Assembly: GCA_013360585.1 (NCBI GenBank)
Contig: JABWBH010000025.1
Span: 1-64,000, forward strand
Length of the DNA stretch: 64,000 nucleotides
Direction: 5' to 3'
Source of the DNA: Phycisphaerae bacterium
GTDB lineage: Bacteria > Planctomycetota > Phycisphaerae > UBA1845
Every line of letters begins with the position of its first letter. The first letter of the stretch is position 1. This document shows positions 35,344-39,661 of the stretch, in pieces. The position numbers were made by a program, and so were the translations under genes. The notes under the pieces are model-generated. The model ran no database searches. It saw nothing but the letters and a program-made list of their open reading frames with translations, and was not told where the DNA came from.

Positions 35344-36915
35344 CTACTCACACGGCGTCTCGATCGGCGGCACGCACCCGGACGGACTCTCGAGCGACAC
35401 CGTCACCGGACCCGCGAAACAACAGACCTTCTCCGCCACCCGGTCCCCGCGCACGGTGAACGCGAACGCCCGACCGTCGAGGTTCACCACGACCTCCTGC
35501 CCGTTATGATCCTCATTGCGCAACCGCACCTTCAGGCTCACCTGGCCCCGCGCACTGCACCGCGCCGTCATCTTCTTGACGTCGCCGCACGTGATCGCGC
35601 ATTCCGGATCCACCGTGAGGTCGCAGTTCGCCCGCCGCAGCCACGGCAGGATCGCCTCCGAAATCGACCGCTCATGAAGACGCAGCACGATGTTGAACAT
35701 CCCGCGCGGGCATCCGTGACAGTAACTCATGATCGTCCCGTTGAAGGCGTCCGAGCAGTCCCCCAGCCCGCACCCGTCGATCACCGGGTTATGATCGTGC
35801 GTGTGAGGCGCGCCGAAGTTGTGCCCCAGTTCGTGCGAAACCACAAAAGGATCCCAGTTGTAATTGCTGTGATCGCGCAGCGGATACGGAAAGTAACCTG
35901 CAAGCGCCCCGGACAGCCCGTATTCGTATCCCCAGTTGCAAAGCCCCGGCAGATACGCCACGCCCCCGCCGTACCCGGCGCAGAGGATGTGCGCGGCGTG
36001 GCGCGGAACGTGGCCCATGTTGGCGTTCCAGTAATTCTGGAACTCTCCCAGACCGCCGCCGGCATAAGGATCCGAGTCGCTTTCCCAGACCCGCAGGAAA
36101 CTGATCCGAAGGCTCGTGTTCACGTCCCGCTTGTAAATCTCCGACACCGCGCCCCACAGGGTCAGCGCATACGCCGCTGACGCCTCCGTGTTGCCGCCGA
36201 AGATGCTCCCCGTGTACTCCCAGTCCGTCTCCACGGCGATCACCGCCACGCGGCACGGCGGACGCTCTTCGCCCCCGGCTGTCTCCTCTCGTCCGGAATC
36301 CGCCACGCCGACCGCCTCGACCCGCTCCGACGCCCCCACCGAGCACGTCCAGTCCGCCCAGTTGAACGCATCCTCCGGCACGGCGTCCGTCCGGTAGATC
36401 ACCGGCGGCAGCCCCTGACCCGCCGGTCCGCTCGACAGAACGTGCGTCGCCCCGTCCACGATCACGTATCCGTATTGCGCCCCCTCGGAAAGGCTCAGAA
36501 ACACACGGCTGTCCGCCTTCCCAACCACCTGCCCCGAATACAGCGCGACGTTCGGCAGCGCGGCAGGCCGATCCCCCGCTCGGGTTCCGATCACCAGCCT
36601 CGCGTCTTCGGTCGTCAGTTGCATCGGTTCCAGCAGCAATTCCGCGGTCGTCCCGTCTCCGAGCACAAACGACGACATCACGAACGCTCCCTCGCCACAG
36701 TCCGCCCCCGACAGCTCCCCCGTAAAGCGCAAACCAACGAAACCTTCCGTTCCCTGACCGTCAACGCTGAAGGGGGACATGATCTTGGGCAGCGGACCGT
36801 TCCGATCCTCCGCGGCCTTTGCATCCGAAAACAACACCCCCGCCGCGACCGCCGCCGCCGCCGCAACACGCCCCGCCGCTCTTCCAACGATCCTGCGCAT
36901 CATCCCCCCGTGCAT
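35344..36915 (-). CDS. Secreted reprolysin-like (M12B) metalloprotease
   Basis: A 523-residue zinc endopeptidase with a signal peptide ending near SDAKAAED. The catalytic motif is HELGHNFGAPH with a Met-turn IMSYCHGC, as in metzincins of the reprolysin type. The N-terminal region (about 45-225) resembles a propeptide or beta-sandwich. A Cys-rich C-terminus with CAITCGDVKK and a final CVPPIETPCE may be disulfide-bonded. It likely digests extracellular protein. It is unusual to find it directly upstream of rsgA, and it may be driven by its own promoter in the 36916-37129 gap. Several ATG codons occur near the start. Confidence 0.88.
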   Translation of the reverse strand: MHGGMMRRIVGRAAGRVAAAAAVAAGVLFSDAKAAEDRNGPLPKIMSPFSVDGQGTEGFVGLRFTGELSGADCGEGAFVMSSFVLGDGTTAELLLEPMQLTTEDARLVIGTRAGDRPAALPNVALYSGQVVGKADSRVFLSLSEGAQYGYVIVDGATHVLSSGPAGQGLPPVIYRTDAVPEDAFNWADWTCSVGASERVEAVGVADSGREETAGGEERPPCRVAVIAVETDWEYTGSIFGGNTEASAAYALTLWGAVSEIYKRDVNTSLRISFLRVWESDSDPYAGGGLGEFQNYWNANMGHVPRHAAHILCAGYGGGVAYLPGLCNWGYEYGLSGALAGYFPYPLRDHSNYNWDPFVVSHELGHNFGAPHTHDHNPVIDGCGLGDCSDAFNGTIMSYCHGCPRGMFNIVLRLHERSISEAILPWLRRANCDLTVDPECAITCGDVKKMTARCSARGQVSLKVRLRNEDHNGQEVVVNLDGRAFAFTVRGDRVAEKVCCFAGPVTVSLESPSGCVPPIETPCE

Positions 36916-37129
36916 ACGACCCCCCTTTTTCGTTCCGACTTCCCCCTATCCGACATCCCGATCCTACCCGATCAGACCGTGAAACCGAAATCGCACCATC
37001 CACGTTCGATCGCTCGCGCTGCGCCTGCATGAACGGCGACAGCCTCCTGCCTCACATCGGCGCGGCTTTACCCCCCGCCGCACGGTCGATAACATCGCCG
37101 CGCGGCGACGACGTGACCGCCGCAGGTCC

Positions 37130-37203
37130 GCGCCCGTAGCTCAATTGGACAGAGTGGCAGACTTCGAATCTGAAGGTTGGAGGTTCGAGTCCTCCCGGGC
37201 GCA
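37130..37203 (+). tRNA. tRNA-Arg (anticodon TCG)
   Basis: A 74-nt cloverleaf. The acceptor GCGCCCG (37130-37136) pairs with CGGGCGC (37196-37202), with discriminator A37203. The D arm has GCTCAATTGGACAGAGT. The anticodon loop CTTCGAA gives TCG, reading CGA/CGN arginine codons. The T arm is GGAGG-TTCGAGT-CCTCC. CCA is not encoded. The next base begins the ATG of mutY. Confidence 0.95.
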
Positions 37204-38313
37204 ATGCAGGCTCACGCAACCGTGCGAACCACCGTCTCGCTCGAATCCGCCGCGCCGATCGTACGCCGGCGCCTCCTGCGCTGGTATGACCGCCACCGCC
37301 GCGAACTCCCTTGGCGGCGCAACCCGCCCGACCCTTACGCCACGCTCGTCTCCGAGTTCATGCTCCAGCAGACCCAGGTGAAAACCGTCCTGCCTTATTT
37401 CGAACGCTTCATGCGCCGTTTCCCCACCTTGCGATCTCTGGCGTCGGCGTCGATCGACGACGTCCTCCCTTTCTGGGCGGGACTGGGCTACTACCGCCGC
37501 TGTCACCACCTTCATGCCGCGGCATGCGCCATCGTGGACCGCCACCAAGGCCGCATCCCGAAAGACGTGGAAGCGCTCCGCGCGCTGCCCGGCGTCGGGG
37601 CGTACACCGCCGGCGCGATCGCATCGATCGTCTTTAACGTCGCCGTCCCGGCGGTGGACGGGAACGTCTGCCGCGTGCTTGCCCGCCTCCGCGGCGACGA
37701 TCCGAAGTCCGCTGGAAGTCGCCCGCTGAACGAGATGCTCGCCGCCCGTCTTGTCGCCCCGCGGCGTCCCGGTGACTTCAATCAGGCCTTGATGGAGCTT
37801 GGCGCGCTGATCTGCACCCCCCGATCTCCGGATTGCCCTCGCTGCCCGCTCCGCGCTTTGTGCCCCAGTCGAGACCGAACCGCGGCGCTTCCGGCTCGCC
37901 GCAAAACGCCGCCTTCGGAATCCCCCCGCACCTTACACGTCGTCGCTCTCGCCATCCTCCGCAAGGAGCAAACGTTCCTCGTGCGCAGACCCGACCGCGG
38001 ATTGTGGGCGGGCTTGTACATGTGGCCGACGGCCGAATGCCTCCCTCACGCCGACCGCGACGCCGTCGCGCTGAACCTTTGCCGGCGGCTCCTGCCCCGC
38101 GCCGCGGCGCTTCCGCGCCACGCAGGACATGTGCGACACGTGCTCACGCACCGCACCGTCCACTTTGACGTGTACGTCGTGCGCGTCAGTGTCGGCGCAC
38201 GACCGACCATCACCGGACGCTGGAGATTGCCCACGTCCCCCGGAACCGACCCGCCCCTCAGCACGGCTCAGCGCAAACTGGAGGCTTGTCTGGTTTCGCA
38301 CGCCTCCGCTTGA
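37204..38313 (+). CDS. mutY: Adenine DNA glycosylase MutY
   Basis: From the ATG at 37204, 369 residues. It removes adenine mispaired with 8-oxoguanine. The active-site glutamate is E51 (SEFMLQQTQV) and the aspartate D152 (VDGNV). The helix-hairpin-helix reads LPGVGAYTAGAIA. Iron-sulfur cysteines C204, C211, C214 and C220 fit C-x6-C-x2-C-x5-C. A C-terminal NUDIX-like domain (about 245-365) recognises 8-oxoG. The start abuts the tRNA-Arg 3' end with no gap; a GTG at 37222 is another option. mutL also lies in this window, 15 kb away. Confidence 0.95.
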   Translation: MQAHATVRTTVSLESAAPIVRRRLLRWYDRHRRELPWRRNPPDPYATLVSEFMLQQTQVKTVLPYFERFMRRFPTLRSLASASIDDVLPFWAGLGYYRRCHHLHAAACAIVDRHQGRIPKDVEALRALPGVGAYTAGAIASIVFNVAVPAVDGNVCRVLARLRGDDPKSAGSRPLNEMLAARLVAPRRPGDFNQALMELGALICTPRSPDCPRCPLRALCPSRDRTAALPARRKTPPSESPRTLHVVALAILRKEQTFLVRRPDRGLWAGLYMWPTAECLPHADRDAVALNLCRRLLPRAAALPRHAGHVRHVLTHRTVHFDVYVVRVSVGARPTITGRWRLPTSPGTDPPLSTAQRKLEACLVSHASA

Positions 38314-38344
38314 CACTCCGGGCGGCGACCGGTCAATTCGTTGC

Positions 38345-39661
38345 ATGAACGCTCAGCTTCAGCAGCGCGTCGAGGCGGCGAGGGAAACGCTGGACGCCCA
38401 CGTCCGCAACATCATCGCGTGGCATTTCGATCCGAAGACCGGCTGTCCCTTCTGGCTGGAGTACGCCGACCGCCTCGGCTGGGATCCGCGCGAGCACGTG
38501 CATACCTACGCCGATCTCGACCTGTTTCCCCCGTTCCAGGATGAGTGGCTGCGCGGCGGACCGGTGCGGCGCTGGGTTCCGAAGGGCCTGGCGCACAAAC
38601 CCGTCTACGTCTTTGAGACCGGCGGCAGCACCGGCGTACCCAAGACGCGCATCAACATCGACGACTTCCGCATCGACTACGAGATGTTCAGCGAAACCCT
38701 GGACGATCGTTACTTCCCGAAGGGCGCCGACTGGCTCATGCTCGGTCCGTCCGGCCCGCGACGCCTGCGCCTCGCCGTCGAGCACCTGGCGCAGCATCGC
38801 GGCGGCATCTGCTTCTGCGTCGATCTCGATCCGCGCTGGGTCACGAAACTCATCAAGTCCGGCCGGATGGACCTGATGCACGAGTACAAGGATCACGTCA
38901 TCCATCAGGCGCTCACGATCCTCCGCGCGCATCCCAACATCCGCTGCATGTTCGCCACGCCGAAACTGCTCGAGGCGCTGTGCGAAAAAATCTCCCTCGT
39001 GCAGGCCGGCATCACCGGCGTCTTCTGCGGCGGAACCTCGATGACCGCCCAGTTCCACCGCTTCGCCCGGGAGGAATTGCTGGAAGGCGGACCCGACTGG
39101 TGGAAACCGAGCCGTGTCCGTCAGGAAGCGGGTTCTGCAACCTCTGCTCCAGGCGACACGAACGCGAACGCAGAATGCAGCATGAGGACTGAAGAACGTC
39201 AATCTCATGACGCGGATCATTCTCCTTCCCGCATCCCGCCTTCCGCATGCCCCATCGATTTCGTCCCCACCTACGGCAACACCCTGATGGGCCTCGCCAC
39301 GCACAAGCCCTTCGACCCGGCCGACCGTTACGCGGTGATCTATCATCCCCCGCATCCGCGCGCCGTGATTGAAGTCGTCGATCCGAAATCCACGGAGAGC
39401 CCCGACGCCTGGCACATCCCGCCGCACGGCGCCGGCGCTGCTAACCCCGGACGCGGCGGCGAACGTCACCGTCTCGTCCCTTACGGCGAAGTGGGCCGCG
39501 TCCGCCTCACCACCCTCACCCGGGAGTTCTTCATGCCCCGCTTCCTCGAACGCGACGAAGCCGTCCGACATCCGCCGTGCGAACGCTATCCCTGGGACGG
39601 CGCCGGCGACGTGCGCCCCTTCTCGGGCTTCGCCGTGCCGATCGTCGAAGGGGTGTACTGA
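38345..39661 (+). CDS. AMP-forming (PaaK-like) acyl/aryl adenylate enzyme
   Basis: From the ATG at 38345, 438 residues. The adenylate-forming signature is FETGGSTGVPK, and CGGTSMT and VPTYGNTLMG follow. It ends soon after GDVRPFSGF, equivalent to the RTGD region, so the mobile C-terminal lid with catalytic lysine is absent. About 47 residues (DNA 39112-39252) between WWKPS and IDFVPTYG are low-complexity and unrelated to the family. The reaction probably activates a carboxylate as an adenylate or thioester, or the truncated protein may only bind. It follows mutY by 31 bases. Confidence 0.75.
   Translation: MNAQLQQRVEAARETLDAHVRNIIAWHFDPKTGCPFWLEYADRLGWDPREHVHTYADLDLFPPFQDEWLRGGPVRRWVPKGLAHKPVYVFETGGSTGVPKTRINIDDFRIDYEMFSETLDDRYFPKGADWLMLGPSGPRRLRLAVEHLAQHRGGICFCVDLDPRWVTKLIKSGRMDLMHEYKDHVIHQALTILRAHPNIRCMFATPKLLEALCEKISLVQAGITGVFCGGTSMTAQFHRFAREELLEGGPDWWKPSRVRQEAGSATSAPGDTNANAECSMRTEERQSHDADHSPSRIPPSACPIDFVPTYGNTLMGLATHKPFDPADRYAVIYHPPHPRAVIEVVDPKSTESPDAWHIPPHGAGAANPGRGGERHRLVPYGEVGRVRLTTLTREFFMPRFLERDEAVRHPPCERYPWDGAGDVRPFSGFAVPIVEGVY
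39112..39252 (+). repeat. In-frame inserted repeat-like segment in the adenylate enzyme gene
   Basis: About 141 bp inside the gene contain CGCAGAATGCAGCATG, CATTCTCCTTCCCGC and related runs, lower in GC than the flanks and similar in style to intergenic filler such as that at 2350. The length is a multiple of three and keeps the frame open. Boundaries are approximate. Confidence 0.55.

Follow-up and report, generated by a model that had tools for sequence, protein, structure and literature searches.

A tRNA-Arg gene joined directly to mutY in a Phycisphaerae bacterium: a probable tRNA-mRNA operon with a conserved seam

In the tRNA-tufB operon of E. coli, as it is treated in the references given in PMC5371648, tRNA gene(s) are co-transcribed with a downstream protein gene, while the tRNA punctuation of mitochondria, where the cuts made at tRNAs define the ends of mRNAs, goes back to Ojala 1981 as referenced in PMC5203842. 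Leaderless mRNAs occur in bacteria such as Propionibacterium acnes, and the 5' end of such mRNAs is there the transcription start site (PMC3848588). In a streptococcus that has only CCA-less tRNAs, RNase Z cleaves immediately 3' of the discriminator base, and redox sensitivity of tRNA maturation has been reported for a streptococcus (PMC8549757). The literature searched, with its incomplete coverage, held no description of a bacterial mRNA made leaderless by tRNA processing.

The locus analysed here lies in a window of 64,000 nucleotides (contig JABWBH010000025.1 of assembly GCA_013360585.1, positions 1 to 64,000 of the forward strand), in which a tRNA-Arg gene runs directly into mutY. It was compared with two sister genomes of the same genus, i.e., G001 (MutY 92% identical) and G003 (MutY 84% identical), giving n=3 species with the junction. 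The features discussed below are the following.

37067..37072, + strand: putative -35 element TTTACC; 8 of 12 consensus matches together with the -10 element; identical in three species
37090..37095, + strand: putative -10 element TAACAT, 17 nt after TTTACC; identical in three species
37130..37203, + strand: tRNA-Arg(TCG), found by ARAGORN and Rfam; without encoded CCA, discriminator A37203; identical in G001 and G003
37204..37206, + strand: seam ATG; G001 and G003 have ATA here; unlikely to be the ancestral start
37204..37221, + strand: inferred mutY leader after RNase Z cleavage, 18 nt
37222..38313, + strand: mutY with its most likely start at GTG 37222, 363 aa; TIGR01084, PF00730, PF14815; GTG invariant in three species

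The tRNA-Arg/mutY seam and its distribution

The ends of the tRNA gene given by Rfam (RF00005, 69 bits, 37130-37203) are the same as those given by ARAGORN, and the seam reads ...CGGGCGC-A(37203)-ATG(37204-37206), in its full form CGGGCGCA-ATG. The first-pass annotation, which had placed the discriminator A at 37203 and a mutY ATG at 37204, is exact to the base according to both programs and the sequence itself. This ATG directly follows the discriminator, with a gap of zero between tRNA and frame, and opens a frame of 369 codons that is the MutY frame; the GTG at 37222 lies in frame 18 nt 3' of it, and upstream the frame stays open into the tRNA up to a TTG at 37177. The third base of the seam ATG, 37206, was read from one draft assembly of 84 contigs. 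The product belongs to the MutY family, as it carries the HhH-GPD (PF00730) and the NUDIX-like C-terminal (NUDIX_4, PF14815) domains and scores 286.7 bits with TIGR01084 (MutY), over the cut-off of 286.5. A 438-aa frame on the + strand (38345-39661), which begins 31 nt after the mutY stop and is conserved in both sisters, matched no Pfam family at E 0.001, and a divergent gene for a reprolysin-like M12 metallopeptidase (35344-36915, - strand) lies upstream of the tRNA.

In both G001 and G003, a tRNA that matches this one at every base is joined directly to mutY with zero gap, and the gene order around the pair is conserved. This indicates a genuine adjacency that has been passed down by descent. 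In G002, the fourth genus member, mutY stands without the tRNA, and a nearly identical tRNA-Arg lies on another contig. A tRNA just upstream of mutY was absent at all other mutY loci of the family that were scanned, the junction was absent from the named relatives checked, and neither a search for close MutY proteins across the order nor a scan of viral contigs turned it up; the arrangement appears to be a lineage-specific join. In another genus of the family (G034), a tRNA-Arg(TCG) at 663-736 of L041 lies less than 2 kb from mutY (1501-2520), on the opposite strand and past the mutY 3' end. Within the genome studied, a long frame begins at the base right after the tRNA at one of the 44 tRNA genes, that of the tRNA-Arg/mutY pair. 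An ATG frame 15 nt downstream of tRNA-Leu(TAA) was considered as a second case and rejected, the frame being unlike a real protein by eye.

Transcription and processing of the tRNA-mutY unit

The tRNA-Arg and mutY are probably copied as one RNA. The weak sigma-70-like site TTTACC-17 nt-TAACAT begins 63 bases before the tRNA, and a site of this grade (8/12) is met by chance in 3.6% of random 130-nt windows; TTGAC/TATAAT-like elements were seen by eye upstream of several other tRNA genes of the genome. The search for terminator-like sites over 36850-38450 found none, and the same-strand adjacency with zero gap and no terminator between the two genes is kept in the three species. What has been conserved is a closely packed pair of tRNA and mutY, preceded by a weak sigma-70-like site.

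None of the 44 tRNA genes found in the genome carries a CCA after the discriminator, and an RNase Z homologue of 298 aa with the HGHMDH motif is encoded at L152:1366-2262 (G000:C27). Therefore, RNase Z should cut after A37203 and free the mutY mRNA, and the streptococcal cleavage right after the discriminator (PMC8549757) puts the expected 5' end of this mRNA at 37204. L152 matches RNase ZS1 7xgt (E 3.5e-31) and the Thermotoga tRNase Z (1ww1), so that both the CCA-less tRNAs and a homologue of the enzyme of RNase Z-type 3' maturation are present, the latter at about 50 bits with TIGR02651, under the cut-off of 293. In its sequence, L152 resembles the plant RNase ZS1 (7xgt) and the Thermotoga tRNase Z more than the common bacterial RNase Z model.

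We hypothesize, with a probability of roughly 0.68, that the locus is a tRNA-mRNA operon in which one promoter before the tRNA drives tRNA-Arg(TCG) and mutY together. RNase P and RNase Z would excise the tRNA, the latter cleaving after the discriminator A37203, and the single precursor would yield the mature tRNA and a mutY mRNA with its 5' end at 37204. Most MutY would be translated from GUG 37222, preceded by an 18-nt leader, and the AUG at 37204 would have arisen recently from an ancestral AUA by an A-to-G change.

The start codon of mutY and competing explanations

The seam codon is ATG in this genome versus ATA in G001 and G003, and between the tRNA and the GTG a single base, that of the seam, distinguishes G001 from this genome. 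The GTG at 37222 is invariant in all three species, and no other ordinary start codon is common to them outside the tRNA; in both sisters the stretch from the tRNA to the conserved RRRLLRWYD segment holds no ATG, GTG or TTG besides it. In bacteria, AUA serves only very poorly as an initiation codon. Since the seam start codon is missing in both sisters, translation of mutY most likely starts 18 bases after the seam, at GTG 37222. By parsimony, the ancestral seam codon is best read as ATA, with ATG arising by a single A-to-G substitution in the line leading to this species, which makes GTG 37222 the conserved start. At this locus, automatic annotation may set the start of mutY wrongly.

The sole Shine-Dalgarno-like piece of the 18-nt leader is AGG at 37208-37210, and Shine-Dalgarno support for GTG 37222 was rejected, the duplex with the anti-Shine-Dalgarno sequence (-2.5 kcal/mol) being no better than that of random 18-mers; the mRNA start region has less structure than shuffled versions of it (z 1.5). 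A start at GTG 37222 leaves 20 residues to WYD, an ordinary distance in this family: the sole candidate start of L022 is a GTG at 20, and that of L030 an ATG at 19. A start at ATG 37204 leaves 26 residues, against 27 for the ATG that is the sole candidate in L021 and in L037. N-terminal length was dropped as a criterion between the two starts, because family lengths vary too widely and fit either.

The first-pass annotation had proposed that tRNA processing creates a mutY 5' end at 37204, where the seam AUG starts translation. The processing part is consistent with the CCA-less tRNA and the RNase Z homologue, but the AUG finds no support as the start, since both sisters with the same seam have ATA and the GTG is kept in 3/3 species; leaderless, tRNA-gated translation of mutY likewise loses its standing as a conserved mechanism because of the ATA in both sisters. 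A look for the same junction in relatives, which it had suggested as a check, recovered the seam in two sisters, with ATA in both in place of ATG. Its fallback, GTG 37222 preceded by 18 bases of leader, fits better, since the GTG is kept in all three species.

In this one species, RNase Z could still yield a leaderless mutY mRNA from AUG 37204, so that tRNA maturation gates MutY. The ATG sits exactly at the expected cut, the tRNAs are CCA-less with an RNase Z homologue in the genome, the rival GTG 37222 comes without a Shine-Dalgarno signal, and the resulting N-terminal length is inside the family range. We nevertheless consider this unlikely, as both seam-keeping sisters have ATA and an AUG start thus cannot have been conserved along with the junction. 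A start codon right after the tRNA 3' end, which is expected of leaderless mRNA made by tRNA processing, is present here (ATG 37204 after 37203); the locus falls outside this class because the terminal start codon is not conserved where the junction is, being ATA in both sisters. Leaderless initiation at the AUG in this one species, if present, would be a late addition. It is very doubtful that the A-to-G change added a processing-dependent leaderless AUG atop the ancestral GUG, whereby RNase Z would add or gate a second MutY form and couple tRNA maturation to the repair of oxidative DNA damage.

We also regard as quite improbable a promoter of mutY's own inside or around the tRNA gene, with the adjacency playing no role in expression: TGGACA-17-TCTGAA inside the tRNA reaches 8/12, but it is dictated by the tRNA sequence, its -10 element is without the final T, a strict promoter scan returned nothing, and the scant free sequence between the tRNA and the GTG leaves little room for a separate mutY promoter. 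For translation from TTG 37177 within the tRNA on unprocessed transcripts, the frame is open and identical in three species. This identity is uninformative, because the tRNA itself fixes these bases, and a start there is extremely improbable: it would sit within the T-arm fold, and processing would remove it.

Comparison with described systems

The probable tRNA-mRNA operon with its conserved GTG offers a clean natural case of a bacterial mRNA 5' end probably set by tRNA 3' processing, and the sister species are a ready-made ATG/ATA comparison. Where an ATG stands exactly at a tRNA end, relatives should be checked before a leaderless mechanism is inferred. As in the leaderless mRNAs of Propionibacterium acnes, the RNA of this species would open with a start codon; unlike there, its 5' end would be produced by processing of the tRNA, and the AUG at its terminus is confined to this species. 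The locus resembles mitochondrial tRNA punctuation in that excision of the tRNA would, judging from the sequence only, set the 5' end of the neighbouring mRNA, and differs from it in being bacterial and in that the codon at the cut is no conserved start; therefore, the mutY mRNA is probably not leaderless. With the E. coli tRNA-tufB operon it shares, at the sequence level, a tRNA followed by a downstream protein gene, the two being probably co-transcribed here, whereas a single CCA-less tRNA, zero bases to the frame and a DNA-repair gene set it apart. The tRNA-mutY pair appears to belong to the known tRNA-mRNA operons, among which its spacer is unusually short.
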